Source: Escallonia rubra (taxonomy: Eukaryota > Streptophyta > Magnoliopsida > Escalloniales > Escalloniaceae). From it: a stretch of DNA of 64,000 bases. The position numbers were made by a program, and so were the translations under genes. The DNA is taken from NCBI GenBank assembly GCA_033065855.1, contig JAVXUO010000345.1, forward strand, positions 1-64,000. The letters run 5' to 3'. Positions 21,850 through 48,445 of this stretch are shown piece by piece (the stretch's first letter is position 1; the number at the start of each line of letters is the position of its first letter). Under the pieces are notes generated by a model. That model was not told the DNA's origin, searched no databases, and was given only the letters and a program-made list of their open reading frames with translations.

Positions 21850-22720
21850 AGGAAAATCCCAAGTCGCCAAAGTTCTTCCAGTTCCTTAAGAAAAAAATTG
21901 AACTTTCCTAGTAAGATGTCCAACAGTTCCTTTCAATTTGAACCTTTCCTTTCATTTGATCCCTAAGTAGGTCATCAACGTATAGTCAATCTGCTTCTAA
22001 GTCAAGTGACTCTCCTTATAAAAAGCTTGCTGAGAGCTCAAAGTTTGACTCCTTAGCATTAGACAAAGAGGTACCCAAGTACCCTTTATTCGCCCTCTTT
22101 GTGTTCCTGTTGGAGTCGTATATGGAATCTTAGAAGATACTGATGAGCTAAAACCGCCCTTTGACACTTATGAGGTGAGGAGCTAGTTGAGTAGTTATGA
22201 CCTCAAGCTCCTTAGGGAACGTAACGACATCTTTAAGTACATAAATATTAGGTTGGCCTGTGAGAGTGAAGCATCAAAACTTAGCACGTTAGACTAGATA
22301 GCCGTGTACGTAGACATGTTCTATAACAGCTTAGGATGCCTATCCACCCTCTCTTCAGTAATCTGCTTACAGGTTATGTCTTAGCCTCTGCTCAGCTTTC
22401 TCCCTATGCTTGAAGATTTATGTTTATGTTTCTATCAATTTCATCATCTTAATTTAGAGTCAAAGATGAGAGTTTTAAGGTACATTTATAGCATATGCTC
22501 GATCACTAAGCATGTAGGTTGGTATTTCCATAGTTATAGATTAGTTCAAAAGCAAAGCTGTTCTCAAACCCCCTCGTCGTGCAACCATAATTGGAAGGAA
22601 AAATTCTTTTTTTTCCTCAAACTTTTAAATGGCATGAAGTGGAATGTCCCTAAGGAAGGGAATGCGTATAACCAACATGGGAATTGCAACTGTCTAAAGG
22701 AATGACCTTAGGGATAATGA
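21850..22720 (+). pseudogene. Gag-like / plant-transposon-like ORF remnant, antisense to the gypsy element
   Basis: Plus-strand pieces resemble the first part of the gag-like protein found in plant Tat-type gypsy elements: AQLSPYA near 22400, then GWYFHSYRL and NWKEKFFFF at about 22513-22615, where family members have WYFSPR and WKERFFFV. Several stops break the frame. It lies opposite in direction to the nearby integrase and LTR. Confidence 0.45.
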
Positions 22721-22807
22721 TCTTCAACACATTGCTCTAGTGAAGCAGGCAGAGCCCATTAGCTCTGAATACCCTTTGTCAAATGACCACTTAAAAGAGT
22801 GGGGTGT

Positions 22808-22925
22808 TACCAAAGTTATTAAAGGTGCAGGTGCACCTAAGGCGCAATGGGTCCTTGGAGCCTAGGCGCAAGGCGCAGGCGCGCGCCTTTTTGAAGTGAG
22901 GCGCAAAATAAAAATAAATAGATAT
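22808..22925. repeat. GC-rich AGGCGC-repeat fragment
   Basis: A roughly 110-bp piece with repeated AGGCGC/GCGCCT words (22840-22910), introduced by CCAAAGTTATTAAAGGTGCAGG. Pieces of this form are dispersed in plant genomes. No target duplication or superfamily could be established. Confidence 0.4.
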
Positions 22926-23113
22926 TGTTGCATTAAACCAATAAAATCACGTAAAAATTTTGAGAACATGTCAATTTAACAAATTTTCAACATTAGAAAA
23001 AGTTTTAAATCCAATAACAAGTAGTTAATCCTAAGTTAATCCAATAAGCAGGAGAGCGAGCATCGCCAACCAGTGCCAAAGAAGCCGAGGGCTGAGAAGT
23101 GGCAAGAGATGAA

Positions 23114-23554
23114 TGTTAATAAATTGGGTCAGTGGACCCATTATCCGCCCACTAACAGATAATGTGTATTTGTTAGTCTGGATAATTACAGTTAATTAGA
23201 GAATATTTATCTCATAAGTGTTTGAGATAAAGTCTGTCTCTAATACTATCTCTATATAAAAGCTAGAGATATCCCAAGAAATTAAGAAGTCACAGCAATA
23301 AGTGACAGATAATAAGTCATCCACAATAAGTCCCTCTCTCTGTTGCACTCTCTCTAGAGCATCACCGAGCTCTAGAATTTGGTTCGTGGACGAAGAACTC
23401 GACTCCAGTAGCCATTTTCGTACATGCGAAAAAGATCAAGCGTGTTGAAAGTTCGTAACAACAAGGATCTTTTGTTGGAATTTTCGGGAACTTTGTAAGG
23501 TATATTTCCGAACCCACTACGTGTTACGTGGTAGCGCATTTAATCGTTTTAACA
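23114..23554 (+). mobile_element. Solo LTR, small family, copy 2 (younger than the duplication)
   Basis: Starts TGTTAATAAATTGGG, ends CGTTTTAACA, with a perfect 5-bp target duplication ATGAA at 23109-23113 and 23555-23559. It aligns with the copy at 19425-19880, including the TATA-like CTATATAAAAGC. In unit C the corresponding place (about 41418) reads straight through without the LTR and with a single ATGAA. Insertion and loss of the rest of the element therefore happened after the segmental duplication. Confidence 0.93.
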
Positions 23555-23559
23555 ATGAA

Positions 23560-24262
23560 AAAAAGGAAGGCGTATGTTCACCAAGCACTACCACCATTGC
23601 AGGCAAGTCAGAAAATCCTCATTGCCCAGATTGGCGTGCAAAGATGGATGAGTCTATCTTCAAGTCGCGCTAAGACGAGGTGCAAAAGGTCTAATCGAGC
23701 AATCATCCGAGGACATGAAGCATCTCTCAGCTACCAAGCCATGGTTCACTTCACTATCATGATAAGACATATTTGCTTTGTCTTTTGTTTAGAATTTCTT
23801 CTGAGCGTTAGGCATGGTACATTTCCAGATTGGGGCCAAGAAGCTTCTTACTACTATGCAGTTGCTTGACAAAGAGCAGGAAAAGGTCATCATGGAAGAG
23901 AATCACCAGCAGGAGGCCGAGAAAGTGGCCAACCTCATGACGAAGGCTAAGAGACTTAAATCTAGCACGACCCAATTCGAGAACAAAATTGAAGCTACCC
24001 AGAAGGGCTAAGACAAGGAGAAAGCAGCAATAGGTGCTGAGGCTATTTTGAGATTCAAACAGTTAAAGAAGTACGAAGATATAAGATTCAGGGATTGCAA
24101 GTGATCCTTGTTGTAAGGATACAACAGGTGCAAGGGTGAAATTGCCAAGGCGCACTTTGTTCTGAAACTGGAGACGTTCCAGCACTCATTAGTAGCTACT
24201 ATGGTGGATGAACATGAGGCCATAAGCTGCAAAAGAAGGTTCAACGGAGCCAAAGTTTAGGA
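23560..24262 (+). pseudogene. Coiled-coil gag-like ORF remnant (unit B)
   Basis: Plus-strand frames give a Glu/Lys-rich helix (LLDKEQEKVIMEENHQQEAEK) at about 23850-23920, then AAIGAEAILRFKQLKKY and ETFQHSLVATMVDE after stops. Such coiled coils follow the WYFS..WKERFF part in plant gypsy gag-like or antisense proteins. Unit C carries the same at 41419-42120 with other stops. Neither copy can make a full protein. Confidence 0.5.
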
Positions 24263-24504
24263 AAAGATCTTTCTACTTGCCATGTGGGGTTATGGAGTCG
24301 TCTGCCACTCAAGGCGTGAAGAGGAAGTTAAGGAGCCTGCACGGGCTAGTTCTGGGGGTCAGCAAGCAGTAGCTTAGGCATAGACTTGAATTTAACCATG
24401 AAGCCCCATTGTGTAAATTGTGATTCAAAATGAAATAAACATTCTGCATCCTTTGTGTTAAACTGTAACTTTATTTAAACACCTAAAGCCTTTGGCGGCA
24501 ATAT

Positions 24505-25400
24505 GTAGTTTTAAAAAAAAGGAAAAGATAAAGTCAACCAAAAAGGGTTTGCACCTCTAAAATTCTCATAATAGACACTAGCATGAAAAAAAGAAACATA
24601 GCTTGGTCTAACGAAAGGTGTTAACTTTAAAGAGAGACAAACACTAGGCATACGAAGGAAGAGGTGCATGCCCCACACTAAACAAGCGCCTTTCTTAATC
24701 ACTAAGTGATAAAAAATAATACCGTCGAGGGCAAGGTGAAAGGCTTCCTGTTGAATGTCTCCAAATGGTGAGCCTCAGGTCCTCATAGCTTGATCGCCAT
24801 ATATGGTCCTTCCCAGTCATGTGAAAGCTTACCCACGGCATCCTTAGAGGAAGATGCCTCTATTTTATGGAAAAAAACCAGGACGAAAAGCTTGTGAGCA
24901 TAACCTTGAGGCCACTCAAGGAGTGAATTTCGCTACCAACTTAAGAACGTTGAACCTTCTGCTTGTAAAAGAAGAGGGAATCAGGGCTTGCTCGTGTGTT
25001 TTGTCTAACAAGTCCAAATTAGATTCGAGCTCCACCTTGTTGCTACCAATCAAATGATGCGACACGCGAAAACGGTAATCCATCTTCAATAGAATACGCA
25101 TTAGCCTTCATTCCACAAGACAAGTTAAAGGGAGTCTTTCCTTTTGGATTCGTATTCATTATACTATAAGCCTGGGGAGTTCATCTACTCACATCAAGCT
25201 TCTCTTTAACGCCTTGAGTATAGATGCACCACAAAGTAAATCGATTCTCAATAGAAAAGCTAGAGCAAAAGGTCCTGAAAGTAGAGTGATCAAACTAATG
25301 ACCATTATTAGTGACTCAAATTGAGAAATGCAAGGACATCCCCTTATGGAATCTTGAAAACAGTGTTGTATTCCTCTAGGAGAATTTGAGACCACCCTTG
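24505..25400 (-). pseudogene. Ty3-gypsy integrase C-terminal remnant (unit B)
   Basis: Minus-strand translation gives VDELP near 25180, NPKGKTPFNLSCGMKA near 25150-25100, then the KVMLTSFSSWF region and VGKLSHDWEGPYMAIKL near 24845-24780. These match the end of plant gypsy polyproteins (GETPF.L.YG, then GKL..NWEGPY). Multiple stops are present. The better-preserved counterpart in unit C (42540-43270) adds the DNGSQFDN catalytic segment. Confidence 0.75.
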
Positions 25401-25479
25401 GACTAAAGCAAGTCTGTAATACTTATTTCGTTGCTCGCCAAACTCTGAAGAATTCTAATAGAGGAATGTAGCTCTCTGC

Positions 25480-26880
25480 TTTTGCACCCTCAGCCACATC
25501 ATCTCCACCTCCTGAGCGATTAACTAAGTGATTGCATCCTTAGCCTTTTTCTCCACCACCAATGATAATTATTAGCAACAGTGATTTTTTCAAAGTTTTC
25601 TTCCAAAGTCCGATCGGCTTGAATCACCGTATCGGCCCCAACTTATACAGCAACAATTGCCTTAAAGAGAGTTTGTTAATTTCCAGTTTAAAATTCAACT
25701 AAGTTATATAGACCTACTATCTGTAATTGTGCAACTTCTTGGGCCATTGTCTGAGCACAAACCAAGGTAGGCATGGGCTTCAAGGCATTCCCAGGGCCAG
25801 CCCACTTGCGCTCTGTCCTCTTGTTGTGAAAAAACAAACTACTCAAGGGTGACCATCCATGTTGGGGAGTGAAGTTCTTTGGTCTTTCCCAAGCTGCTGC
25901 TCCTATTTCGCTTCCTTTTTTCCCCCCCCTCTGCCTAGCCTATCCAACTTGCAGTTGAAGGACCAAATCTTTTTGTTGGCTTGTTTTCTTAAGCCGAAGG
26001 TGGTGGAATCTCATGGGCAGGTGCTGCCAAGTCTGTGTCAAATTGATCGATCATAGCAGGATTGTCAGCAGAAATGCTCATCACAGAAGTCCAAATGCCA
26101 TTGCATTAAACATTTGTTTATTGAGGGCACACCCTCCAAGTAGAGCTGAGCAGAGGTCTCGAGTATGGTTGCGATTGAATCTGCATTTAACACCATAGTA
26201 AGTTTAAACGAAAATCACGTTCGGTTCAATTCACAGCAGAGCTCCTTTCCTCTGCACCATGGGTTTATGACTCAAGATGATGCCACTCTCATGCAATTAC
26301 TCACTGGAAAGAATACTCGCAGACAATAGATTAGCCGAGCAGATTTGCTCCTTAAGCTTGACTCTTTCTCTGCTCGGCAGCTGAGCAGATGAACTACATG
26401 CCTTGAGTTTTTGTCTGCAGCGACAAGGTTCATGCCTTTATGCAACATCAAACACTATGCAAGTGCGCGTTGAATGATATGCTTAAGAATCATCGCATAT
26501 AAGATGGAATTATTGGCTCTATGATGTAAGCTAAAACATCATTTCCCAATGATTGGCTCAATGCCGGCTACAAGCATCGTATATTCGATACCACCCCCCA
26601 ACCCTGGCCCCTCCCCTCTTTTTTCACGATGATATGATTTCATTAATACAATTATCGCTTTTTTCAGATTCTTTGCGTGACTATTTTTTTAATACAACTA
26701 TTGACAATCCTTCGTATATGTACTGTCAACTCTTCTTGAGAATCACGTCAACCATTTTAACGTTGTAAATATTTGTGTCTCAATTCTTTTAAAATAACTA
26801 ATTTTGTTATTTCCAAATTCTCATTAACGGTATCATACAGATTTGTTTATGTTTTTCAATATTCATTATAAAACAGGAAA
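25480..26880. other. Transposon-derived sequence shared with unit C, then B-specific spacer
   Basis: 25480-26530 is collinear with about 43380-44440 of unit C, with a few percent divergence. It contains a 65-residue plus-strand frame in both copies (25859-26056 and 43767-43964) that matches nothing I know. The stretch is probably part of the gypsy element, but no domain was recognised. Similarity to unit C stops near 26540, just left of the GLR copy B promoter. Confidence 0.5.
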
Positions 26881-27057
26881 AAAAAAATTAATAGAAAGGC
26901 TTCCCATATATCCTCACTGCCAAACTACTGCATAGTTGTGATCGACGGGTCAATTTCAAAGAAATGAGAATTGTCAAAAATTCTGTCTTTTCATTTGTTT
27001 TGGCTCAGACAAGAAATGGAGGATAATCCCAATGATGCAGGATAATCCCAATGATGC

Positions 27058-27070
27058 CACGTGCCACGTG
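27058..27070. promoter_or_regulatory. Two G-boxes upstream of GLR copy B
   Basis: CACGTG occurs at 27058-27063 and again at 27065-27070, separated by one base. G-boxes bind bZIP and bHLH factors in plants. They directly follow a short tandem repeat of GGATAATCCCAATGATGC (27021-27057). Regulation by them is inference. Confidence 0.5.
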
Positions 27071-27360
27071 CATACGCAAGTTTTCTTTTGGAGTTAAAAC
27101 AAGTTTTCTAATTTACTATGTTACCTTTCCTTTTCGGTGAGACCTTTTCATTTAATGAAGGATGAATAATGAAATTGATGTCATTTTATAGGATAAGGTT
27201 ATATCTAAACTTTTCTTTACTATTTATGCAGATATATGTGTCCTCACCAGGATCTTCAAATAATAGAACAATGTTCAATATTCAATAGAACAATGTTCAA
27301 ATAATAGAAAGATCCTTATCAATATTCAATAAATAGCTTCCAGGAAGAAAATTCGAGGGT

Positions 27361-27369
27361 GTATATAAA
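27361..27369 (+). promoter_or_regulatory. Probable TATA box of GLR copy B
   Basis: TATATAAAT lies about 200 bp upstream of the chosen start codon at 27561. Transcription would start near 27390-27400, leaving a leader of about 165 bases that contains two short overlapping upstream ORFs (27435-27500, 21 codons; 27439-27513, 24 codons). Confidence 0.55.
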
Positions 27370-27560
27370 TAGCTTCTCTTTCCTTGTATTTAACTTTTAA
27401 GTAAGTTATTCATACAAAGAAGCTGAGGGCCTGCATGGATGAAATGGATGGCAAATTCGAGGTTTGTAGACTCAATAACCGAAATTACCTGGAACTTTAG
27501 ACCACGAGGTTAAAGTATAAGATACAACCAAACTTGTCCCTACAAGAACCAACAAATGTA

Positions 27561-30500
27561 ATGGATGGCAAAACTTGCTCTATGTTTTTTCTTTTTGCCA
27601 TCCTTTTTGAGCTACACTTTAAGGCTACGTTTTTCACGAGTGCTGCAGGAGAGATGAATAAAACCACCGTATCGAACTCAAAGGTTGATGCGAACTTGCA
27701 TAGTCTTGCCACCGGTGAAGGTACGTAACTGTTTTTAATTATAGGTGTTCATAAGTTTGTGCGTCCAAATAAAAAAAAGTTGTAATAGTTTCATACGTCA
27801 GGTTTATGTATTGATGATTTTATGACGATCAAAAGTCAGTGTACCATTAATAATTAGGCAATGCTGTCTTTGCTTTATGTTTTAACATTTCAAACGAAAT
27901 ACTATTGATTTCTTGTATTCGATTTGACATTAAAGGGACTCAAGACAGTGTTGGCTCAACTCTTCCAATAAGCCCTTCTTTCATTCAGATGGCTTCTGAT
28001 GACTCCTCACAAGCTCAGTTTAACAATCTAGATTCTGGGGAAGTTGTTGTATTGCCCAGGAGAGTCTCACCGCCTCGCTCAAACGGTACTACACATTTCA
28101 AGAGTGAGTGTGAAAAACTTTCCAGCTGGATAAAGTCGGAAAAGACTACCGCCGGGGATACTCCCGTGAAATGGAAGGCCTGCGTTCCCGTAAAAGACGG
28201 CTTTATTGAATTTGTTCACGTGGATAAAAAAATATGTAAATTGATCAGTGGGTTTTCTACAGAGGTGTTCTGTGCCGCGTTACAAATATTTCCTTATAAG
28301 GTTGAACCTGAATTTGTCCCTTTAGTGGACCACAATTGTGAAGCTAGTCAAAACTACAGCGACGTCATCCTTAAGCACGTTGGCCAGGTTAGCTGAAAGT
28401 CCTCTCATTTCACTCTTACAAAGTCATACACGGTGAGGCCTTTTTGGTACATTAGCCAAAGCTGCCATTAACAACTACGAATCAGAGAAAACAAAAAGGA
28501 AAAAAAAAAAGAAGTTTCTTCGAAGGAGAAATGGTTCATTGAAGGCAAGAAATCTATGAAATTTAGTTGCAAAAATTTACAGAAAGGTATATCATGGCAA
28601 TTGAGACTTGTGGGAGGTTATATAAGGAAAGAATTGTTATTTTGATGAAGGGTATTTAGAACAAGAGAAATTTGAAAAAAATAAGAACAAGAAAAATAAT
28701 TCTAACAAGGAAGCCTGGGTGAGCGTCTAGAATGTTGCTTGCCTACGTAGCGAGAGTTAATGGACGAAAGTATCACCAAAAAAAAAAACGGGATCTTCAG
28801 CTCTGATACCATATAGAAACTTAAAATATGACTTCATTTCTAATTATCTGTTCAGTACAAGCACCTATACATAGCTGAAGAGGATAATTTAAATCTATCA
28901 GTTATCTCAACCTAATAATATTATCTCAGAAGATAACTAATCACTTACCGTTAAAAGTTACACTTGATCCACATCTAGATTGATCTAACATTATCTGATG
29001 TCCTCCTCCCCTCCTCCCCCATTTTGAATAAATATTCCATGTGAACAAAAATTAACCCAAAGAAAACAAATATATGAATCCCAAATGTCCAGCAAGGATC
29101 TTGCCAATTGTTCCATCGCCAGCATAAGTGATCTCTATATTACAAAGCATAAGTGATCTCTATATTACAATATATACCCAATGGAAGGCAAGCCAGTTGT
29201 CCATCTCTAGGACTGAAGGCCGAGTGTCAACATGTAGAGAAGAAGTGCATAAGCACAGGAAATTGTGAGGTTGAAAAGAAAGGCTCTTTGAGAACAATGA
29301 GATGATCAATATAGTTTACGAAATGGAAGGATATGAAAAAAACAAGGATATAGACAATCCATAAGTATGAAAAGTTAAAAACTCATTAGTGGAGGAATAG
29401 CAAAATGTAGAGCAACATATTTGAGAAATATATAAATTCCAGAAACCTATAATCTTTAACTCATAGTTTATTACACATAGATAAGCAACAAAAGTGAAAA
29501 AGAGAGAAGGAAAAAAAAATTATGTTGGCTAGGGGAACGGGCCGATCGCAGAAATGCAAAAGTACTTGAGAACTCTCAAAACAGAGATTGTCCTGCTCTC
29601 GATAAAATATAGAACTATAAAGTAAGATTTCATTTCTTGAATACAACTTGCCACCACTAAGAGTTTATTTAGAAATAATTTGGAATACAAGATAACACAA
29701 AATATGAATTTAACTTATCTTTGTCTCTAACTTCATATTCTTGATTGATATATGTCTTCTCACACATTATCCCACTTGTCCTATTAGACGCCAAAACAAT
29801 GTGATGCAGTGGTAGGAGATACAACAATATTGAATTGTCGAACATCCTATGTTGAATTTGCACTGCCATACATGAGCTCTGAAGTTTATAAGCTGCTCCT
29901 AGCCAAACGAGGAGGCACGCACAAAAGCATCTGGACCTTTGTAAAACCCTTGAGTTGGGAGCTTTGGCTGACAATGGGCGTAACTTGCATGCTGGCTGGA
30001 GTAGCATTTCAATTCTTAGAGCATCGTGTCAACAGCGAACTTAGAGCTCCATGGCATCAGCAACTCGTCAGGATCTTTTGGTTCCCATTTTCTGCCCTCA
30101 TCTTTCCTGAAGGTAATTCTTTCACTGACATTTTTTGCCGTTTGAGCAACTTGTAACTTAACGTGGTATCAAAGTTCTGATTAAGGAAGGTCTTGGGTTT
30201 GATTCCTTTTGCTTGCTTATTTGGTCATTTTTTAGGATAGTGCAATTTGCACTCCGACTAATCGTTCACTTGGTTATGGTGCACTTTATTTTGTTTCTGC
30301 ACATACAATTGTTAAGTTCCATGTGAAGGAAAGTGTTAAAGTATGATATTTTGTTTTTTTTTTTTTTGATTTAGTTTTGAAATATTGAATTTTTAGAGTA
30401 ACAGGTAACTTAACGTACTTTAAAGTCGACTTATTAAATGGGGGAGTAGAAACAACGATCCATGCTTAGAAAAAACATCAAGCAAGCATTTGTTTTCCCC

Positions 30501-33232
30501 AATTGGTGAATTTTTGGCAACAAAAATGCATCGTAACAAGAATACTTTTCTTCCAAGCTAATGAAAAACCCTGCTACATCTTCTCTAACAGTGACAGGGG
30601 GTATGGCTAATCAATGGTCGAAGGTTGTGATGGTGATATGGTTATGCATGGTATTCATAGTAATGCAGGCTTACACAGCCAACTTATCCTCGATTTTAAC
30701 TGTAGATCAGTTGCAACCTATTGAACCTAGAGTAATCCAGTCAGTTGGGTACCAAGAAGGCTCTTTCGTGCGGGACTTACTAGTAAAGGAGTTTGATTCC
30801 AATGTGTCCCTCAAGCCATACACGACCATTAACCAATATCACGACGCCTTGAAGAACAAGAACGTTGATGTGATCTATGATGAGCTACCATACATAAACC
30901 TCTTCCTCAATAAGCACGGATCTGACTATATGAAAGTTGGGCCCATATATAAGAACACCGGATTTGGCTTTGTGAGTTTTTCTCCTCCTCTTTTTTGCTC
31001 TCTTTATCATTTTACATGTTAAATGTAACAGTTTTATATGGTGCCCCTAGCAAAGGAATCATGACTTATATAAAGGTGGGCGAAAATACACCTTAGTGAA
31101 AATCTGCAAAACAAAACTAAGGTGGGGAAACACTCTTTCTTTCTACATTATACAAACCCAATTTGTTTAGGTAATTCACATTTTAGAACCACTGGTACTG
31201 TTGAAAATTAAGAAAGAAAGATCCAACTTAGTTGTGGATAAATTAAAGCTTATGTGCCTCCGCCCCGGGTATATATCTCTTTCAATGAATTGTACACTTC
31301 AATCGTCATGCTTGGATTCCTTCTCACGAGTTGGATTCGTGTCGTTGAGCCCTCCAGGTAAGTGGATGTATCAGTTAACTAACAAGTCGATATATAACAT
31401 TTGATGCTACTAAAATGGTTACGTTCTTGTTTCTATCAAATGGTCAAACACTTAACTCATAGTAGAAGGTTAATTCCTAATTTATGCCCCCACATATGGC
31501 GCATGAGCAGAACCACCCTCCAATGAAATTTAATGGCAAACTTTTCTCTCTAAATATAGCAGGGATAGCATCCATTATCCAGCCCTAATGGCAGCCGTTA
31601 AGTTAAGGATATCCCTGGTAGGAGGTGCATATTGCAACTTAAAACGTCGGGGAATATTTTTGAATGATAAAGACATATATAAACAAACTAATCAAGCTCT
31701 TCTCCCCCCTCCCCCTCCCTCCCTCCCTCCCTCTCTCTCTCTTCCTTCATATCTTCTTTACCAACCACCACACATGTTCTCCTGCAATATCTGTGTGTGG
31801 ATATATATCGGGGTTGCCATGGGCCCTCCTAGGAAATTTTTTATGGTATACTTCTAGGCAGGGGCGGATCCAGGAAGTCCAACCGGGGGGACCAAAATGT
31901 CATAAAAAAAATTTTAACGGCTAATATAAAGAATTCACGTCACGATTGAATACGTTAAATGCAGAATAGATTGTTCAATTTGCCTAATAATCATATAATT
32001 TAACTATTTATAATGCTTTATTTAACTTGTAAAGTTAGTCAACAACAAACTACTAATCTTGCATGAACAAAACTTTATTTTTATTGTATATATGTATTAT
32101 TAGTACGATATCAATTGTATGATGACAATAGTTACGTATAAGTTAACACACTATAAGAATTTAAATTAAAAAAAAAGAACTAACCTTGATATATTAGTGT
32201 TTAATTTAAAATCTGGAGATTTAGAATTTGGAAGAATAAAGATGGACAAGAGAACGAGAAAGAAAAAGACTACCACGGCTGGTGGCACAAAAAGTAAAAA
32301 AAAATTACAAAAATGAAATCTAATACATTGAATAATTAAAATGGTAGCATTTTAGTAAATATTTTAAACATAACTATTTATTATTTAAAAAAATCTCAAA
32401 CTTTGGGGGATGTGTGTGGGTGGGTGGGTGCCATGGCCCCTCTTGGTCATGCTTGGGCTCCGCCCCTGCTTCTAGGGAGACGCTTTCCACACCCTAATAT
32501 GATAATTCAGCCAAAACAAATATGAACACTTGTCAGTAGATCACTTTTAGCAAGAAAAATATGTTATAAAAACATATAAAGGGGTAGAAATAGCAATTTT
32601 CCGTGTATGTATAGTAAAATGTATTTCGGTGCAGTTACGGTTTACGAAGGCATCTGAACTTGTTATAATGTAGTACCTCATCTTAAACACTGGAGAGTGT
32701 AATTTATATCCATTATTTTGAATTCTAAGTAGTACTCCTGCTTATGTGCTTAAAATCGTTTGAAGTCTAATGTAATCCACATAAAATAACATGGCAGGCA
32801 TTCCCTTTTGGCTATCCTTATGTCCCTGAGTTTTCTAGGGCAGTTGTAAGTGTGAGCGAAAGTAAAACAATGCAAGACCTTATGAAGAAATATCACGTGC
32901 ATGACTATTCCGATCAAGCTTCCCAAGTGCCCCCACAAACTCCTCCTCTTCGTGCCCATAGTTTTATTGGCCTCTTCATCCTCGCGGGGGTTGGTACCAT
33001 TGGAGCTGTATTTGCCTCGGAATATGCCCTTTGGCAAAGAGGCAGTGCAACTGCTGAGATGACTAATGATAGTGAAGATTTGCCAAATGTTGACAATCAA
33101 GAGCACCCTCCGCCAGTTTCTATCCCAAATGTTGACAATCAAGAGCACCCTCCTCCGCCAGTTTCAATAAACGAATCAGATGAAGGAGAAGAAAACACAG
33201 AAGTCTTCCCTTCCCAAGTGGTGCCGCATTGA
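27561..33232 (+). CDS. Glutamate receptor-like (GLR) channel lacking the amino-terminal domain, copy B
   Basis: Five exons join in frame: 27561-27720, 27936-28387, 29788-30112, 30592-30971 and 32798-33232, all GT-AG, giving 583 residues. Exon 1 codes a hydrophobic signal peptide (residues 7-25). S1 of the ligand-binding domain runs from residue 133 (WKACVPVKDGFIEF) to DAVVGDTTI at 210-218, with the likely ligand-contacting Arg at 222. M1 is about 260-281, the pore loop FWFPFSALIF 301-310, M3 323-350 with AYTANLSSILTV, S2 353-490 with YDELPYINLFL at 408-418, and M4 495-517. The tail repeats PNVDNQEHPPP. Plant GLRs are usually 850-950 residues because an ANF/LIVBP-like domain of about 400 residues precedes S1. 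Here only some 80 low-similarity residues separate signal and S1, and intron 1 is just 215 bp. GLRs are cation (Ca2+) channels of plasma and vacuolar membranes. Whether this form makes a working channel is unknown. Confidence 0.85.
28799..29000 (-). mobile_element. Copia LTR remnant in GLR copy B intron 2
   Basis: GCTCTGATACCAT (reverse complement of the ATGGTATCAGAGC primer-binding site) at about 28800 is followed by LTR-like sequence to about 28995, in minus orientation. Unit C keeps the LTR part at 45328-45515, but its primer site is damaged. Exact borders are not resolved. Confidence 0.55.
31697..31745. repeat. CCCT/CT microsatellite in GLR intron 4
   Basis: A run of CCCTCCCT words passing into CTCTCT, also present in unit C at 48290-48325 with a slightly different length. 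It generates spurious overlapping frames. Confidence 0.8.
31859..32468. mobile_element. hAT-type non-autonomous element in GLR copy B intron 4
   Basis: Ends CAGGGGCGGATCCAGG and CTTGGGCTCCGCCCCTG form the inverted repeats, with a perfect 8-bp duplication CTTCTAGG (31851-31858 and 32469-32476). It is 610 bp, AT-rich and non-coding. The same insertion with the same duplication is at 48446-49064 in unit C, so it predates the segmental duplication. A third family member is at 57153-57788. Confidence 0.93.
33079..33174 (+). repeat. Tandem repeat in the GLR copy B C-terminal tail
   Basis: A segment of about 42-45 bases coding PNVDNQEHPPP(P)VSI occurs twice in direct succession and in frame, lengthening the acidic, proline-rich cytosolic tail. 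Confidence 0.85.
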
Positions 33233-34130
33233 GAAACATTAAATCATTTTGCGTTTTCCTTGGGTTCGAAGCATAGAAGTATGTACTCGTTTAGAAAAGG
33301 ATTTAAGCATTCCTCCGATGTATTCACATTCTTCAAAGTGTTTTCGCCTAATGAAAAATATTACTTTCTTTTGTTTTTCAATTAATAGCAGAAAAATAAA
33401 TATATTAAATTCTTAAGGAGAATCATATTTTACACTTAACTCGCTGTCCGTTAGAAACACGTTTAAAGATTCTGAAGCTAGCCAGTTAGTTTGACCTAAC
33501 TATGTAAAAATAGCATCGGGATAATTAACCCAATGGATCCACGTTTTTTGAGAGTAAGACTAGCTTTTTTCCTTCTTTCCCTTTTTTCCCATAGCATAGT
33601 CCTTTTGGAAAATTGAACTGCAAGACAGAAAACGATGACCTACAAGATAGAAATGGAACTCAAGGGACATACTAAACCCACACCTCATGGAACAGAAATG
33701 GAACTCATGGAAGAAAATTGCTCCACATTGAGAGGAAATTAAGGTCTGACTATTAAGGTTGTTCGATAATTATGCCTAAAAATTTGAAGCTAATGAAGAT
33801 TTTTAAGGGTATTTTTACTTAGATTTTAATATAGACTTTAATGGGGCATTAGTATATGACTTCGTGAATATAGTTGACCTTGGAGAAGTCTTCTTGAACA
33901 TAAACCAATTGCCTTTGTTTAAAATACCTTTATGTCATTTTTAAATCAAACACGTAGTCATCCAACAGCGACTTTCTTGAAGTATATACAGTGGCTTGTC
34001 TCACATGGGCTATATTCTACAAAATTATGTGAGCTTTTCTTACACTTCAAGAAATAAAGAAGTCATAAAGCAAGACGAAGCCTACTATGAGGAAACACTC
34101 TTGAGCTCTCTATTTTTTAAGAAAATACAC
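33233..34130 (+). other. 3' flank of GLR copy B
   Basis: Non-coding DNA after the GLR stop. It is shared with the copy A flank at 1-76, 505-565 and 9241-9935, and is missing from unit C, where a deletion joins the equivalents of about 32733 and 34075. It shows what the copy A flank looked like before the LINE and CACTA insertions. Confidence 0.75.
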
Positions 34131-34289: not shown

Positions 34290-35272
34290 ACCCATTTTAA
34301 TTTTGCAACACGTCATCACCTTTTACTTATGCGACACGTCATCCTATTTGTTTTCATATCACATTCCTTTTTTCACTTCTACTTATTAGAAATACATATG
34401 CGCCATGACTCTTTATTTTGATATCACATTCCTTTGTGACTTCTACTTATTAAAGACACACATGTACGATGACTCTTTACTATAATTTATTTTTAAAAAA
34501 TTTGTAAGTAATATTGACATAATTTTACTAATCTTTATAAGAGTAAAAAATTAATTATGCACCTTCTAAAACTCTACCTATTCAATGTGCTTGCATACAA
34601 GATCTAAATTTTCACTACTAACACCTCAAAAATACTTTAAAAATCTCTGTTTATTCAAGTTGCACATGCATCATGACTCATTACTATAACTTATTATTAA
34701 AAAATTTCACATGTATTATTGGCATAATTTTACTAAACTTTATAATTGTATAAAACCGATTCTGCACTTTCTAAAACTCTACCTATACAATATAGTAACA
34801 TATAAGGTCTTAATTATCACTATTAACATCCCAAAATTACTTTAAAAACCTCTACTTATTAAAGTTACACATGCATCATGACTCTTATTATCAAAAAATT
34901 TGCAGTTATTATTGACATAATTTTACTAAACTTTATAAGAGTAGAAAATCAATTCTGCACCTTCTTGAACTTTACATATTCATTATACAAACATATAATG
35001 TCTTAATTTTCACTACTAACACCTCAAAAGTACTTTAAAAACCTCTTCTTATTAAGGTCACAAATGCTTGATGACTCTTTACTATTATTTTTCACTACTA
35101 CCACCCCAAAAGTACTTTAAAAATATCTACTTGTTAAAAGTCACGCATGTATCATGACTCTTTATTATAATTTATTATTAAATTTTTTTTTGGTTCTTAT
35201 TGGTATAATTTTACTAAACTTATATGAGTAGAAAATCAATTTTGCACTTCTACCTATTTAATATACTAACAT
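34290..35272 (+). repeat. About 200-bp tandem repeat array, unit B
   Basis: Repeated blocks share CATGACTCTTTACTATAATTTATTA, GGCATAATTTTACTAAACTTTATAA, CTAAAACTCTACCTATTCA and TTTTCACTACTAACACCTCAAAA (each under 20 bases conserved at a time). The anchor CATGACT recurs at about 34404, 34468, 34673, 34877, 35070 and 35153, so full monomers are near 200 bp and some are shortened. The array is non-coding and AT-rich. It is duplicated at 49560-50541 and appears again at 59537-60132. Confidence 0.8.
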
Positions 35273-37322
35273 TGTCGCAGCCCGAAAATTCGAAGCTTTA
35301 ACACCCGGACTTTTCCCGATGCGTTAAAACAATCACTACTTAATGACGTAAAAACCTCAAATTTTTAAATAACTAACTATGAGAACTTATGTCAGGGCTT
35401 CTAATAATCACAATTCCTCAAATCAATTTGAATCTTATCAACAAGCTAGAGAAGTTTACCCGCGCAAGGATCTTAATAATCAATACTAAAAATTTAATTT
35501 ACTTGCTCGTCTCTAATCCTTTCTCAGGCAACATAATGCTGTCATTGGTGAACAGGAAGTCAAAAGAGAGCGAGATTTTAAGAGCCCAGTAAGGTCGATC
35601 AAAGATTTAAAATCACAACGATTTGGACAAGTTTTCATATAGAATCAAATTGTAGGTTTTTAAAAGGATTTTCAAATAAGACACAACATTTCAATATAGA
35701 TGAATAATACGAACGTTTTTACATTCAATTCAAGTAACATCTTTTAAAAGGATTTTGTTTTTGATGAAATCATAGCAATTCAATATAAACATAGGGATGA
35801 GTATCATATCAATCTCTTAAATCAGTAGTCATTCAAAACACTCCGGGTATAATAAAAAGAGAAAGATAATATTGAACATGAGCAGTACACTATAGCAAAG
35901 CCATCCTGATAGTATATGCTTTATATATGCATATGTACACTGACTAGTCCATTTAGGTACTAGTTTAACCCAATCAGCGAACTATCCTTATAACGCCAAA
36001 AATATGCACCATCCTTATAACTCCCATATTACTTACTCATGTCAACATTTAGAAGGAGTAATTAAAACTGAAAATTCTTTACGATGAACGAATCAATAAA
36101 CAGATGAAATAAACAATAAATTTCAAACAATCGCTTTAAGGCTTAATTTAGGGTTTCACAGACAATTGAAAATATTTTTCTATCAATCATAAAGATAAAA
36201 TTCCATATAGTTTAAAAAAAATGTTATTATAAGCATTTAAAATCAGAGTAATGATGAAAGATTCAGAGAGAAAATCCTTACCTCTCTCCAAGCTAGGCAA
36301 TGCTACGCAACTTTGATCAAGATTCTCTGAATAAACCTAGACTGACAATCCATTTGTTAGAACACAATCTATGCTACAATATTATAAACCTAATCTTAAC
36401 AACCCACCACGTGCTCACTTCTAACTCCGAAATCGCTTAACTCAAAGCAGTCCCGCCCATTGCTAACCTAACCGAAATTCCTATGCACTCTTTAATGCGC
36501 AACGATACTCCAAACATATTCAATTATAACAAAACAACTTTATAGCTTAAAAAGTTATAAGAAGTAAAAAATATAATATTTTTGAAATTTTGAATATTTT
36601 TAAATTAAAATAATTTCTTTAAATGCAATAAAACTCTATAAATAACCATAATTATTTCTACATGAAAATAAAGTCCCATAATTTCTATAAGAATTTTAGA
36701 CTATATATAAAAACTATAGAATTAAAATCAGAATTTAAAAGACATCAAAACACATTTTAAATGTTTTGTTTTTCTAAAATCAATGCGATACAAATATTAT
36801 AGCAAATCAACTCTAAAAATCACCAAACTTAATGTAGGTCTTCTTTATACTATAAAAACATTACTCAATGTTTTTCAAAATATTTTCATGAGTTTAATGG
36901 CTCCAAAATAATTTTAGAAATCTATGTTTGTACAAAATCTTAAAAATACATATGATCTCAGAAAATTATGACATTTTACCAGAAATATATTATACGTTAA
37001 AGTTTCATATGCTAATGATCATTATGCACTACCAATGCACGCGCCATTCTGAAATTTTAGAAAATACTAAAAATACATACAATTTCAGAAAATAATAAAA
37101 TTTTGTAAGAAATTCTATTATAGCCTAAGGTATTATAATTTAAAATTTTACGCGCTAACAATTACTTGCTAACTCAATATCCACTAACTGCGTGTCCAAA
37201 ACCCACTTTTTTTTTCTTCCCCAATTTGCTGCACCTTCACATTTCACCTTGCACACACACATGCACATAGCACGTACACACATCACTCTACACAACACAC
37301 AAAAGTGCGCGCGCACACACAT
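35273..37322 (-). mobile_element. Long LTR (family E), truncated copy in unit B
   Basis: Starts TGTCGCAGCCCGAAAATTC right after the AACAT target word in the 200-bp repeat and is collinear with 50542-52578 in unit C. It breaks off in a CA-rich stretch at about 37322 against copia sequence. The orientation is opposite to the complete family member at 60133-63929. No coding capacity. Confidence 0.8.
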
Positions 37323-40300
37323 GCTTGTCGATGATGTTATGTTGGCTCTTATAGACTTGAGCAAAATTAATGGTACGAGTTCAAGCAGTCAAGTCAAGGC
37401 AAGGCAAGGTCTGGTGATAAGATCTGAAAATAAGAACGGTCATGGAAGAGACATATATCGGTCTAGAAGCAGAAATTCAAGACATGGAAAGGACAGGTCT
37501 AAGTCTCGTGGAAACCAAGGCAAGTCTAGTATTGAATGCTGGTATTGTAAAGTGATCGGTCATTTTGCAAGGAAGTGTCCAGAAAGGAAGGATAAGAAGA
37601 ATGGAAAGAAACATGTAAACAATGATAATGTTGCTGAAAAAGATGACAAAAGCAGCGATGGTGATCTCTACTTGGTTTCCTCAGTTGAGCAGCAAGAAGG
37701 TAATCTGTTATCAGTTAGAGACAACAGTTTTTCTACGGAATGGTTTCTTGACTCTGCTTGTTCATTTCATATGCGCGCACATAAGGAATGGTTTGATAGT
37801 CTTACTCCATGTAACGATGATACTGTTTTAATGGGTAATGACATTGTTTGTAAAGTCATGGGGATATGTATCATTAAAATTAAAATGTTTCATGGGATTC
37901 TGAGAACCCTAGGTGATGTATGGTACATACCTGACTTGAAGAATAATTGATTTCCTTGTGTACACTCGATTCTATAAATTGCAGTATATCTATAAAAGGT
38001 GAAGTCATGAAAGTTAGTAAAGAAAACTGGAAATTTGTATAAACTGATAGGGAACATAGTTATAGTTGGAGCTTCAATATCAACTAATGCATGGGTTATA
38101 GCAATGATAACTCTGAGTTATGGCATAAACGGCTCGGACACTTAAGTGAAGGAGGTATCCTGGAACTTCACAAGCACAAGTTGCTGCAAGGAATGGAATC
38201 ATGCAAGGTGAACTTTTGCAAATTTTGTGTGTTTGAGAAACATAAACGAGTTAGTTTTAAAGTTGCTTCTCATACTAGTAAAGGGGTTCTGGACTATGTA
38301 CATTCGGATGTTAATCAAGCATGTCTCAAATGGGGAAGCTCTGTACTTTTTTATATTAATAAATGATTTCTCAAGGAAAGTATGGGTGTACTTTATGAAG
38401 CATAATTCTAAAGTTTTCAATGTGTATAAGCAGTGGCATGTTAGAGTTAAAAACCAGACATATAAGAAGCTTAAGTACTTCAGATCAGATAATGGCATAG
38501 AATACAAGGATGGGAAATTTTTTTCAGTTCTACAAGGATGAGGGTATCATTAGGCATTTTTCAGTGAAAAGGACTCCAGAGAAAAATGGGGTTGCCGAAA
38601 GGATTAACGAAACACTATTGGAGCGAGCTAGATCCATGAGGTTGAATGCAAATTTACCTAAGAGTTTTTGGGCTGAAGATGTTAACATAGCTTGTTACTT
38701 GATCAACTGTTCTCCATCATCTGCCATTAATCACTGAGTTTCTGAGGAGGTATGGTCTGGTAAACGAGTTAATTTTTCTACAATGAGAATTTTTGGTTGT
38801 CCTGCATTTGTTCACTTTAAAAAATGAAGATCAATCCAAACTTGATCCTCAATCAAAAGAATGTAAATTCCTTAGGTATAAGGAAGTGTAAAAGGATACA
38901 GGTTATGGAATCCAGTAGCCAAGAAAAAGGTTATGAGTAGATATGTGGTATTTTATGAAGCGCATATGTTGAATACAGATGTAACTTCTAGCGAGAGGCA
39001 GGGTCACACATTGGGGATAGAGTTGCATGAGCAGAGGATAAAAGTAGCGGATGAGTGCACAAATGGATCTATAAATGAGCAATCTTTAGACGATCCAGAG
39101 GAGCATCCTAGTGACTCTTGGAATCTAGTCAGAGATAGAGAGCCACGTACCAAGAAACCAACTCAAATGTATGTTTTGAGGACTTGGTCTCGTTTGCACT
39201 AATCATGAGAAGTGGAGATCCTATCAGTTACAACAAGGCTGTCAAGGTGAAAGATGGTAACTCGTGATTGATAGCAATGGATGAGTAGATGGAATCTCTA
39301 CGGAAGAATCAGACTTGGGAACTAGTTAAACTTTCAAAAGGTGTGAAGGCTATTGAATGCAAATGGGTTTATAGAAGAAAAAAAAGGAAGATCAGAAGTA
39401 CAAGGCAAGGTTGGTGGCAAAAGTGTATTCTCAAAAAGAGGGAATTGATTATAATGAGATCTTTTCGCCAGTGGTGAAGCACACTTTTATCAGATTAATA
39501 TTGTTCATTGTAGCAGCGCATAATATGGAGTTGGAGCAGTTTGATGTGAAGACAACTTTCCTCCATGGTGATTTGGAGAAGAGGATCTACATGCAGTAAT
39601 CCGAGGGATTTATTGAGCCTGGGAAGAAAGACTATGTGTGCAAGCTGAAAAATTCCTTCTATAGTTTGAAGTAGTGGCATCAGCAATGGTATAAGCAATT
39701 CGACACATTTATGGTAACTCATGGTTACTCTCGTTGTGATTATGATTGTTGTGTGTATTATCGAGTCCTTGATGATGGTTTACAGTTGTTGCTTACATTA
39801 TATGTGGGTGATATGTTGTTGATTGCTGCAAAGAGTAAATCTCATATTCTGCACTTGAAGAAATTATTGAACATGGAGTTTGATATGAAGGATCTTGGTT
39901 CTGCCAAAAGATTCTTGGTATGAAGATTCATAGAGATCGAACGGCAAGAAAGTTATGGGTAGCTTAAAAAATTTATGTTGAAAAAGTACTGGAGAATTTT
40001 AGTATGCTCATCGCTAAACCGGTTATTATACCATTGGGAGCTCATTTTCAGTTATCCTCACAATTATGTCATAGTACAGGAGAAGATGTTGAGTATATGT
40101 CTTGAGTACCGTACACAAATGCGGTTGGTTGTTTTATTTATGCCATAGTGTGTACCAGACCTGATATATCACATGCAGTTAGTATGATCAGCAAGTATAT
40201 GGAAAATCTAGGAAATAAGCATTGGGATACAGTGAAGTTGATCTTCCTTTACCTAGTAGGTTCGACCAACTTTGGTATTATGTTTGTTCATGATGGCTAA

Positions 40301-41418: not shown

Positions 41419-42120
41419 ATGAAAAAAGGAAGGCGTCTGCTCACCAAGCGCTATCACCATTGCAGGCAAGCTAGAAAATTCTCACTCCTAGATTGGAGTG
41501 TAAAGATAGATGACTCCATTTTTAAGCTCGCCAGGACGAGGTGCAAAAGGTCGAGTCGAGCAATCATCAGAGAACATGAAGCATCTCTCAGCTACCAAGC
41601 CATGGTTCACATCATTATCATTGTAAGACATTTTTCTTTGTCTATTGTTTAGAATTTCTTTTGAGCGTTATGCAGGTATAGATCCAGATTGGGGCTAAGA
41701 AGCTTCTCATTACTATGCAGTTGCTTGACAAAGAGCAGGAAAAGGTCATCATGGAAGAGAATCACCAGCAGAAGGCCGAGAAAGTGGCCAACTTCACGAC
41801 GAAGGCTAAGAGTCTTAAATCTAGCACGGCCCGATTCAAGAGCAAAGTTGAAGCTACCCAGAAGGGCTAAGATAAGGGGAAAGCAGCAATAGCTGCCGAG
41901 GCTATTTTGAGATTCAAATAGTTAAAGAAGTACAAAGATATATGATTTTGGGATTGCAAGTGATCCTTGTTGTAAGGATACAACAGGTGCAAGGGTGAAA
42001 TTGCCAAGTGGCACTTTGGTCTGGAACTGGAGAGATTCCAGCACTCATTAGTAGCTACTATGGTGGATGAAGAGGAGGCAATAATTTGTAGAAGAAGATT
42101 CAATAGAGCCAAAGTTTATG
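41419..42120 (+). pseudogene. Coiled-coil gag-like ORF remnant (unit C)
   Basis: Counterpart of 23560-24262. It has the same Glu/Lys-rich helix region (about 41720-41800), differing stop positions and a broken frame. Nothing suggests function. Confidence 0.5.
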
Positions 42121-42539
42121 ATAAGATCCCTTTCTACTTGCCATGTGGTGTTATGTAGTCGTCTGCCACTCAAGGCATGAAGAGGAAGTTGAGGAGCCTG
42201 CATGGGCTTGTTCTAGGGGTCAGCAAGCAGTAGCTTAGGCATAGACTTGAATTTAATCATGAATCCCGTGTGTAAATTGTGATTCAAAATGAAATAAACA
42301 TTCTGCATCCTTTGTGTTAAACTGTAACTTCATTTAATCACCTAAAGCCTTTGGCGACAATATGTAATTTTAAAAAGGAAAAGATATAGTTAACCAAAAA
42401 GGGTTTGCTCCTTTAAAATTCTCATAAGAGACACTAGTATGAAAGAAAGAAACATAGTTTGGTCCAACGAAAGGTGCTAACTTTAAAGAGAGACAAACCC
42501 TAGGCATACGAAGGAAGAGTTACATGCCCCACACTAAAC

Positions 42540-43270
42540 TGGTGTTTTTCCTTAATCACTAAGTAATAAAAAATAATACTGTCGAGGATTGGTAGCATTC
42601 CAAGTGTGATAGACTTCTCGTTGAATGTCTCCAAATGGTGAGCCTCAGGTCCTCATAGTTTGATCGCCATATATGGTCCTTCCCAGTCAGGCGGAAGCTT
42701 ACCCACGACATCCTTAGAGGAAGATGCCTCCATTTTATGGAAAAATACCAGGATGAAAAGGTTGTGAGCATAACCTTGAGGCCGCTCAAGGAGTAAAATT
42801 CACTACCAACTTAAGAACGTGCAGCCTTCTGCTTGTAAGAGAAGAGGGAATCCGGGCTTGCTCTCGTGTTTTGTCTAACAAGTCCAAATTAGCTTTGAGC
42901 TCCACCTTATTGCAACCAATTAAATGATGCGACATGCGAAAACGGTAATCCACTCTCAATAGGATACGCGTTAGCCTTCATTCCACAAGACAAGTTAAAG
43001 GGAGTCTTTCCTTTTGGATTCGTATTCATTATACTATAAGCCTGGGGAGTTCATCTACTCAAATCAAGCTTCTCTTTAACTCCTTGAAGAAAAGTGCAGT
43101 TTATAGCTTCAGTCTGGCTGTTTGAGAATAGATACGCCGCAAAGTAAATCGATGCTCAATAGATAAGCTAGAGCAAAAGGTCCTGAAGGTAGAGTTATCA
43201 AACTAACTACCATTATCAGTGACCCAAATCGAGAAATGCAAGGACCACCCTTATGGAATCTTGAAGACAG
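42540..43270 (-). pseudogene. Ty3-gypsy integrase remnant (unit C)
   Basis: Minus-strand translation reads VTDNGSQFDNSTFRTFC (about 43225-43175, the catalytic-core Asp region), then SLSIEHRFT, NPKGKTPFNLSCGMKA (about 43020), KVMLTTFSSWYF (about 42770), and GKDHIWRSN/GPEAHHLETFN frames near 42690. This is the order of a plant gypsy integrase end. Stops and a frame change are present. Unit B keeps the same sequence at 24505-25400. Confidence 0.8.
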
Positions 43271-44449
43271 TGTTGTATTCCTCTAGGAACATTTGCGACC
43301 ACCCTTGGACTAAAGCAAGTCTGTAATACTTCTTTCGTTGCTCGCTGAACTCTGGAGAATTCCAATAAAGGATTGTAGCTCTCTGCTTTTGCACCCTCAG
43401 CTACGTCATCTCCACCTCCTGAGCGATTAACTAAGTGGTTGCAGCCTTAGCCTTTTTCTCCACCTCCAATGATAATTATTAGCAACAGTGATCTTTTCAA
43501 AGTTTTCTTTCAAAGTCTGGTCGGCTTGAATCACCTTATCGGCCCCAACTTAAACCGCAACAATTGCCTTAAAGAGAGTTTGTTAATTTCCAGTTTTAAA
43601 ATTCAACTGAGTTATATAGACCTACTATCTGTACTTGTGCAACTTCTTGGGCCATTTTCTGAGCACAAACCAAGGCAGGCATGGGCTTCAAGGCCTTCCC
43701 AGGGCCAGCCCACTTGCGCTCTGTCCTTTTGTTGTGAAAAAACAAACTACTCAAGGGTGACCATCCATGTTGGGGAGTGAAGTTCTTTGGTCTTTCCCAA
43801 GCTGCTGCTCCTATTTGGCTTCCTTTTTTTCCCCCCCTCTGCCTAGCCTATCCAACTTGCAGTTGAAGGACCAAATCTTATTGTTGGCTTGTTTTCTTAA
43901 GCCGAAGGTGGTGGAATCTCATGGGCAGGTGCTGCCAAGTCTATGTGAAATTGATCGATCATAGCAGGATTGTCAGCAGAAATGCTCATCACAGAAGTCC
44001 AAACTGCCATTGCATCAAACATTTGTTTATTCAGGGCACATCCTCCAAGTAGGGCTGAGCAGAGGTCTCGAGTATGGTTGCGATTGAATCTGCATTTAAC
44101 ACCATAGTAAGTTTAAACGAAAATCACGTTCGGTTCAATTCACAGCAGAGCTCCTCTCCTCTGCACCATGGGTTTATGACTCAAGATGATGCCACTCTCA
44201 TGCAATTACTCACTGGAAAGAATACTCGCAGACAATAGATTAGCCGAGCAGATTTGCTCCTTAAGCTTGACTCTTTCTCCGCTCGGCAGCTGAGCAGGTG
44301 AACTACATGCCTTGAGTTTTGTCTTCAGCGACAAGGTTCATGCCTTTATGCAACATCAAACACTATGCAAGTGCGCGTTGAATGACATGCTTAAGAATCA
44401 TCGCATATAAGATGGAATTATTGGCTCTATGAAGTAAGCTAAATCATCG

Positions 44450-46383: not shown

Positions 46384-47564
46384 ACGCCAAAACAATGTGA
46401 TGCAGTGGTAGGAGATACAACAATATTGAATTGTCGAACATCCTATGTTGAATTTGCACTGCCATACATGAGCTCTGAAGTTTATAAGCTGCTCCTAGCC
46501 AAACGAGGAGGCACGCACAAAAGCATCTGGACCTTTGTAAAACCCTTGAGTTGGGAGCTTTGGCTGACAATGGGCGTAACTTGCATGCTGGCTGGAGTAG
46601 CATTTCAATTCTTAGAGCATCGTGTCAACAGCGAACTTAGAGCTCCATGGCATCAGCAACTCGTCAGGATCTTTTGGTTCCCATTTTCTGCCCTCATCTT
46701 TCCTGAAGGTAATTCTTTCACTGACATTTTTTGCCGTTTGAGCAACTTGTAACTTAACGTGGTATCAAAGTTCTGATTAAGGAAGGTCTTGGGTTTGATT
46801 CCTTTTGCTTGCTTATTTGGTCATTTTTTAGGATAGTGCAATTTGCACTCCGACTAATCGTTCACTTGGTTATGGTGCACTTTATTTTGTTTCTGCACAT
46901 ACAATTGTTAAGTTCCATGTGAAGGAAAGTGTTAAAGTATGATATTTTGTTTTTTTTTTTTTGATTTAGTTTTGAAATATTGAATTTTTAGAGTAACTGG
47001 TAACTTAACGTACTTTAAAGTCGACTTATTAAATGGGGGAGTAGAAACAACGATCCATGCTTAGAAAAAACATCAAGCAAGCATTTGTTTTCCCCAATTG
47101 GTGAATTTTTGGCAACAAAAATGCATCGTAACAAGAATACTTTTCTTCCAAGCTAATGAAAAACCCTGCTACATCTTCTCTAACAGTGACAGGGGGTATG
47201 GCTAATCAATGGTCGAAGGTTGTGATGGTGATATGGTTATGTGGTATTCATAGTAATGCAGGCTTACACAGCCAACTTATCCTCGATTTTAACTGTAGAT
47301 TAGTTGCAACCTATTGAACCTAGAGTAATCCAGTCAGTTGGGTACCAAGAAGGCTCTTTTGTGCGGGACTTACTAGTAAAGGAGTTTGATTCCAATGTGT
47401 CCCTCAAGCCATACACGACCATTAACCAATATCACGACGCCTTGAAGAACAAGAACGTTGATGTGATCTATGATGAGGTACCATACATAAACCTCTTCCT
47501 CAATAAGCACGGATCTGACTATATGAAAGTTGGGCCCATATATAAGAACGCCGGATTTGGCTTT
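46384..47564 (+). pseudogene. GLR copy C, truncated pseudogene
   Basis: Only exons 3 (46384-46708) and 4 (47187-47564) remain. Exon 3 appears identical to copy B. Exon 4 has lost two bases at about 47241 (frameshift before M3) and has a CAG-to-TAG stop at 47301-47303 just after the M3 segment. Exons 1-2 are replaced by unrelated DNA at 44450-45315, and exon 5 with M4 and stop is removed by a deletion at about 49328. Both splice borders of the two exons are preserved. It cannot make a channel. Confidence 0.93.
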
Positions 47565-48445
47565 GTGAGTTTTTCTCCTCCTTTTTTTTGCTCTCTTTAT
47601 CATTTTACATGTTAAATGTAACAGTTTTATATGGTGCCCCTAGCAAAGGAATCATGACTTATATAAAGGTGGGCGAAAATACACCTTAGTGAAAATCTGC
47701 AAAACAAAACTAAGGTGGGGAAACACTCTTTACATTATACAAACCCAATTTGTTTAGGTAATTCACATTTTAGAACCACTAGTACTGTTGAAAATTAAGA
47801 AAGAAAGATCCAACTTAGTTGTGGATAAATTAAAGCTTATGTGCCTCCGCCCCGGGTATATATCTCTTTCAATGAATTGTACACTTCAATCGTCATGCTT
47901 GGATTCCTTCTCACGAGTTGGATTCGTGTCGTTGAGCCCTCCAGGTAAGTGGATGTATCAGTTAACTAACAAGTCGATATATAACATTTGATGCTACTAA
48001 AATGGTTACGTTCTTGTTTCTATCAAATGGTCAAACACTTAACTCATAGTAGAAGGTTAATTCCTAATTTATGCCCCCACATATGGCGCATGAACAGAAC
48101 CACCCTCCAATGAAATTTAATGGCAAACTTTTCTCTCTAAATATAGCAGGGATAGCATCCATTATCCAGCCCTAATGGCAGCCGTTAAGTTAAGGATATC
48201 CCTGGTAGGAGGTGCATATTGCAACTTAAAACGTCGGGGAATATTTTTGAATGATAAAGACATATATAAACAAACTAATCAACCTCTTCTCCCCCCTCCC
48301 CCTCCCTCCCTCCCTCCCTCTCTTTCTCTTCCTTCATATCTTCTTTACCAACCACCACACATGTTCTCCTGCAATATCTGTGTGTGGATATATATCGGGG
48401 TTGCCATGGGCCCTCCTAGGAAATTTTTTATGGTATACTTCTAGG

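Follow-up and report, generated by a model that had tools for sequence, protein, structure and literature searches.

Does a GLR gene without its amino-terminal domain (ATD) belong to a stable truncated lineage, or is it a young gene in decay? The question is raised by one gene of Escallonia rubra, here called B, which lies in a window comprising positions 1-64000 of contig C1539 (64,000 nucleotides) of a 566-Mb assembly, and for which a preliminary description had left both options standing. The five GT-AG exons in a single 584-codon frame given by that description were borne out to the base. B occupies 27561-33232 of the + strand, with exons of 160, 452, 325, 380 and 435 nt (1752 nt in sum) and GT-AG borders at all four introns; no internal stop was found across the 584 codons of the spliced frame, which include the stop TGA, and the protein has 583 residues before cleavage of a leader (signal peptide) assigned by eye. 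The junction of exons 1 and 2 was likewise found in frame and in phase 1, across an intron of 215 bp (Table 1).

Table 1. Features of B and of the duplicated copy C, by position in the window (C1539:1-64000)
Feature	Position	Strand	Description
B exon 1	27561..27720	+	hydrophobic leader followed by a short tail; 53 codons plus one base; phase 1 at its end
B intron 1	27721..27935	+	215 bp, GT-AG, phase 1
B exon 2	27936..28387	+	ATD remnant, linker, first part of LBD segment S1
Putative ATD remnant of B (residues about 55-81)	27938..28018	+	aligned with exon 2 start and ANF-match start of D and E
Putative deletion join in B	28014..28018	+	CTCAG in B, TTCAG in F
Start of S1 in B (residue 132 onward)	28169..28387	+	
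B exon 3	29788..30112	+	remaining S1 (D215, T217, R222), M1, pore loop
B exon 4	30592..30971	+	M3 (AYTANL, residues 339-344), S2 (F371, E410, Y413)
B exon 5	32798..33232	+	end of S2, M4, C-terminal tail
Duplicated segment	23559..37324	+	second copy at 41422-52578
Copy C exon 3	46384..46707	+	protein sequence identical to B
Copy C exon 4	47186..47567	+	frameshift and stop

Two local peculiarities of the gene model were observed. B seems to be without the acceptor used in several paralogues, a CAG that lies a few codons downstream and precedes TCTTGT or AATTGT (29776-29803), and must splice exon 3 at an upstream TTAG, whereby the residues TPKQ are added. In the C-terminal tail, a PNVDNQEHPPP unit that is single in the aligned relatives is repeated in frame (33082-33165).

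A Pfam search of the B protein returned Lig_chan at residues 260-505 (E 5e-22), and the order S1-M1-pore-M3-S2-M4 is that of the plant GLR/iGluR family. The best solved relative was AtGLR3.4, aligned from the start of S1 to M4 (residues 136-513 of B against 497-876, E 5.6e-52). A ligand-coordinating motif is described for clade-3 LBDs in the available text of PMC11479355, and its counterparts in B, mapped from the alignments to solved structures, are D215, T217, R222, F371, E410 and Y413. The M3 gate, aligned to SYTASL of AtGLR3.4, was scored as being of the SYTAxL type and reads AYTANL at 339-344, the first Ser being replaced by Ala. The pore loop at the end of exon 3 reads FPE in all 11 aligned members of the group to which B belongs (in B, 30085-30112 and 30592-30610), followed by TGG in eight, by TGS in two and by an unclear start in one, and in six other GLR loci of the genome that were read it is VFAH (three), VYAH (one) or differs (two). 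This group signature hints at altered permeation.

B therefore resembles full-length plant GLRs (AtGLR3.4, PDB 7lzh, and the other GLR loci here) in its exon-intron skeleton, compared by eye, in the segments S1, M1, pore, M3, S2 and M4 and in its ligand-motif counterparts, whereas it differs from them in the lack of an ATD, in a pore loop with FPE in place of AH (four of six loci read), in the M3 sequence AYTANL and in a long branch, the group being separated from the other GLR loci by 1.1 substitutions per site. The GLR protein tree comprised AtGLR3.4 and 11 of the 12 other GLR loci tried (L002 having no usable exons); L004 was not included, and L033 is the gene of L007.

The ANF domain (PF01094) of full-length plant GLRs was not detected in the B protein at E up to 10, nor was the window represented among the matches listed by a genome-wide PF01094 search at E up to 0.001, which returned at least 68. 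The absence of this domain, as first described, was thereby upheld, and B is a GLR core without an ATD in an otherwise complete frame of 583 residues. All that remains of the ATD is found at residues about 55-81; residues about 56-81 look like a leftover, given that two paralogues, D and E, align there and then run into their ANF match.

The exon layout indicates how such a gene could have come about. Six other GLR loci, read by eye, have the same layout as B, with the leader and the start of the ANF domain in exon 1, and most of the ANF domain and the start of S1 in exon 2. A phase-1 intron lies at the corresponding place, inside the ANF domain, in all four GLR loci in which the junction was read, and B, matching them in intron 1 phase and in layout, therefore keeps the old exon-intron skeleton. 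Origin of B as a processed pseudogene by retroposition was ruled out because its four introns are retained, intron 1 having the same phase as in the four other loci. A chance frame in exon 1 was also ruled out: a genome search for the same leader exon, as the preliminary description had proposed, found exon 1 and its donor conserved among paralogues.

Both D (C1539:69868-76424; 686 residues) and E (C1538:47931-54466; 690 residues) share exon 1 of B and have open frames, and their second exons match ANF positions 88-232 (E 4e-19) and 88-233 (E 7e-24) of 353, respectively. A third open gene of this kind, C1444_2 (687 residues), matches positions 93-267, the match lying at C1444:29289. Across these intact relatives (686-690 aa), the match to the ANF profile of 353 positions is confined to about 83-267, which leaves the group as such with about half an ATD. 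As judged from these alignments, B belongs to a divergent GLR group in which the ATD appears to have been eroded inside exons 1 and 2, rather than lost as an exon.

The group is a mixture of open and broken genes. Six of the 13 copies modelled splice to open frames (B, D, E, C1444_2, C1011_57 and a copy F), and the other seven show at least one defect in their printed frames; among the half-ATD copies, C1333 (L017), C156_71 (L018), C1011_17 (L023) and C156_15 (L026) have frameshifts, stops or lost acceptors. These copy counts are lower bounds, since only top candidates are scored in the genome searches.

Copy F (C156:156474-163586, minus strand) has an open frame of 575 residues and bears most directly on the history of B. 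In five of seven half-ATD copies scanned, two TTCAG motifs lie exactly 342 bp (114 codons) apart; in D and E one or both of these sites carry substitutions, and of the copies known from the exon 1-2 alignment only, C1333 retains the first repeat and C1444_1 neither. A single TTCAG is left at the join in F, with CTCAG at the same place in B. The missing 342 bp take in nearly all of the ANF part of a half ATD, and B lacks one further exon 2 block relative to the half-ATD copies. With the deleted block removed, an exon 1-2 DNA tree set B and F apart from the other nine sequences (98% ultrafast bootstrap). The simplest account is that B and F share one in-frame deletion between TTCAG repeats, which would predate their split. 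The exon 1-2 tree is contradicted by trees built on exons 2-5 or 3-5, in which F is united with the half-ATD pseudogene C156_15 (77% and 85%); recombination or conversion could be responsible, though this is unproved.

A second route to the same end is suggested by C1011_57 (C1011:61788-65512; 512 residues, open frame), in which exon 2 has a few ATD-remnant residues and then passes directly into S1. None of the exon 2 sequences of B, F and C1011_57 matched ANF at E up to 10, and C1011_57 appears to have lost its remaining ATD through a deletion different from that of B and F. In its close relatives C1444_99 and C3114 the 5' end is either damaged or absent.

Because B had been picked for being open, the fair test of frame survival is F, which was not so picked. 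The two genes differ at 409 of 4745 non-coding sites (8.62%) and at 147 of 1719 aligned coding sites (8.55%), and the C-terminal tail of B (exon 5) is 21 bases longer than that of F, in frame. Without selection, about 5.4 stops would be expected (147 substitutions x 0.0365) and none was observed; all five coding indels are multiples of three, as against nine of 47 in non-coding sequence (38 of 47 not). One-base indels are common in homopolymers. At these rates, the chance that both copies would stay free of stops and frameshifts is about 4e-9, or 3e-5 setting one-base indels aside, and for a single copy it is 7e-5, or 0.005 on the same terms. The frame evidence favours retention of B over decay, and the loss of the ATD appears to be older than the B-F split (8.6% non-coding divergence), neither frame having broken since. 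Of the two options of the preliminary description, the stable truncated lineage thus fits better, because the deletion is shared with F and both frames have survived this divergence.

It is probable, in our assessment, that B is an intact five-exon GLR gene which lost its ATD stepwise by deletions in exons 1 and 2 and which is kept as an ATD-less subunit under relaxed selection. In a first step the ATD of the group would have been eroded within these exons to roughly half; in a second, the 342-bp in-frame deletion between TTCAG repeats would have occurred in the ancestor of B and F. The predicted product is a leader-bearing LBD-plus-channel subunit that may still bind an amino acid and may assemble, by itself or together with full-length GLRs, via contacts in the LBD and the membrane, having presumably forgone ATD-based assembly and modulation. 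An open, shortened frame in two diverged copies may point to a working channel part.

Whether B and F are two loci is a separate matter. They could be old alleles or homeologues of a single locus, giving one ATD-less gene and not a lineage of two, which we consider possible without thinking it probable; since it concerns the number of loci, it is compatible with retention of an ATD-less subunit. In reversed orientation, C156:172501-178500 aligns collinearly with C1539:19289-23796 as five segments of 83-92% identity, and F lies further on from the matched stretch, as B does. However, a non-coding divergence of 8.6% is, in our judgement, high for alleles, and a similar stretch is present on C1538, the contig of E, so tandem units explain the match as well. 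Contig C1538 also carries a segment (22204-27010) that is 97% identical to C1539:12732-17503.

Retention of an ATD-less subunit under relaxed selection has next to be set against the evidence at the amino-acid level, where constraint on B and F appears weak. The codon model, preferred over a Nei-Gojobori count (which gave a lower B-F dN/dS of 0.53) because it allows for transition bias, returned a B-F dN/dS of 0.70 over 438 codons (p 0.11 vs 1) and of 0.60 over the 388-codon core (p 0.04 vs 1). By exon, the ratio was 0.58 for the S1 part of exon 2 and 0.50 for exon 5, as against 0.92 and 1.18 for exons 3 and 4, which hold most of the channel and in which no constraint is therefore seen; exon 1 alone yielded no p below 0.05 in any of five pairs. 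Branch estimates for B (0.75, p 0.41) and F (0.67, p 0.15) were both indistinguishable from 1. Compared over the core with either D or E, B gave 0.42-0.46 (p < 0.001), and with E over all codons 0.54, comparisons that also take in time before the ATD loss. The ATD segment lost by B had ratios of 0.32-1.72 over 21 pairs of seven copies, with two pairs below 1 at p < 0.05. The three pairs formed by three full-length duplicates on C1407 gave 0.24-0.46 at a somewhat lower divergence (t 0.13-0.16 vs 0.27 for B-F), and the whole group gave 0.76. In the C1011_57 group, the pair tested had a ratio of 1.10; the crown branches, at 1.41, were above the rest of the tree, though not separable from 1 (p 0.17). 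The group would be either under relaxed selection or fast-evolving for other reasons. The earlier claim that B is under some constraint is therefore sustained for the reading frame, which is unbroken in B and F, and much less so for the amino acids, with coding divergence equal to non-coding divergence and a B branch at p 0.41.

The codon analyses used 11 copies, with C1333 included without exon 5. Left out were the window copy C, C156_71 and C1011_17 (frameshifts), C1444_1 and a fragment at C1444:41-44.5 kb (incomplete), and a copy at C156:194 kb that repeats exons 3-5 of E.

Copy C, which lies in the second copy of the duplicated segment, had been cited as having decayed where B had not. It retains exons 3 and 4 only, and has no counterpart of B 26541-28790 (exons 1-2), where 864 other bases lie, or of about 32733-34072 (exon 5). 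Where both exist, identity between B and C is 95.7-100% in 250-bp steps (about 25750-32732 vs 43660-49328), and 87-96% in the flanking duplicated segments. This tract suggests that an open gene and a pseudogene have undergone gene conversion, a process that probably acts both here and at C156_15/F and that could refresh reading frames. As three exons are missing from C altogether and the copy lies within the tract of high identity to B, its decay is poor evidence of constraint on B.

These results bear on a rival reading, slow decay of B and F: loss of the ATD would be a step in eliminating redundant tandem GLR copies, with B and F intact by luck or conversion and yielding no useful protein. 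The weak amino-acid constraint, the seven defective copies of 13 together with copy C, and the B-C identity tract all speak for it, as does the proposal, in the accessible part of PMC4995503, that ATD loss is an elimination mechanism for redundant genes. The same source names a single ATD-less pear GLR, PbrGLR2.11, whose expression was not detected, which also counts against a retained subunit. Against decay stand the two frames unbroken since 8.6% non-coding divergence, the five of five coding indels in frame and the six of 13 copies that splice to open frames, and we hold it to be doubtful. That B is a normal GLR, with an ATD exon further upstream or missing from the assembly, is highly improbable: it has nothing in its favour beyond the usual presence of an ATD in plant GLRs, whereas the genome-wide ANF search, with no match listed in the window, ruled out a hidden upstream exon, the leader exon sits 215 bp upstream and is common to paralogues with their ANF part in exon 2, and F shows the same deletion join.

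Other features of the window include an open frame at 14171-15409 whose gene belongs to the Endomembrane protein 70 family (EMP70, E 3e-163), a reverse transcriptase with zf-RVT and an RVT_3 part at 55282-58465, which we take to be LINE-type, and a Pol_BBD and zinc-knuckle fragment at 37159-37950, presumably Copia-like. Direct repeats about 200 bp apart lie downstream of B and C (34487-35138 and 49748-50409), with a further copy at 59644-59778.

Genes lacking the ATD are a known kind, being already reported by surveys; in the accessible part of PMC4995503, 11.03% of plant GLRs lack it, 74% of those in GLR1&2. The surveyed genes, as presented there, are like B in having a GLR core without an ATD and in being mostly tandem copies, whereas here the deletion is mapped, is common to two diverged intact copies and falls within a graded series. 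In the GLR literature looked through, mostly titles and the starts of abstracts, no shared ATD-deleting event or graded series was reported.

ATD-less relatives are found outside plants. Bacterial GluR0 is, like B, a glutamate-receptor channel without an ATD, but according to the available text of PMC11479355 it is without M4 as well and falls outside the lineage that bears the ATD, whereas B has M4 and would have lost its ATD secondarily. Insect Ionotropic Receptors, iGluR relatives most of which have no ATD, pair with the ATD-bearing co-receptors IR8a or IR25a and so demonstrate that a subunit without an ATD can function alongside partners that have one (PMC6472016, as far as its text was available); they belong to a different kingdom and an independent loss. 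By analogy, functional GLR subunits lacking an ATD could form a class of their own in this plant, one with two or more origins (B/F and the C1011_57 group) in a half-ATD group that has a distinctive pore signature, and could serve as tuning partners of full-length GLRs in parallel to the insect receptors, although we think this unlikely.

One genome thus appears to hold a natural deletion series on a common core, with a full ATD, half an ATD and, by two routes, no ATD. The need of plant GLRs for the ATD in assembly and function is, to our knowledge, unsettled, and such a series could test the role of this domain without engineered truncations. It would also help to decide whether the ATD-less GLRs of the surveys are debris or channels.
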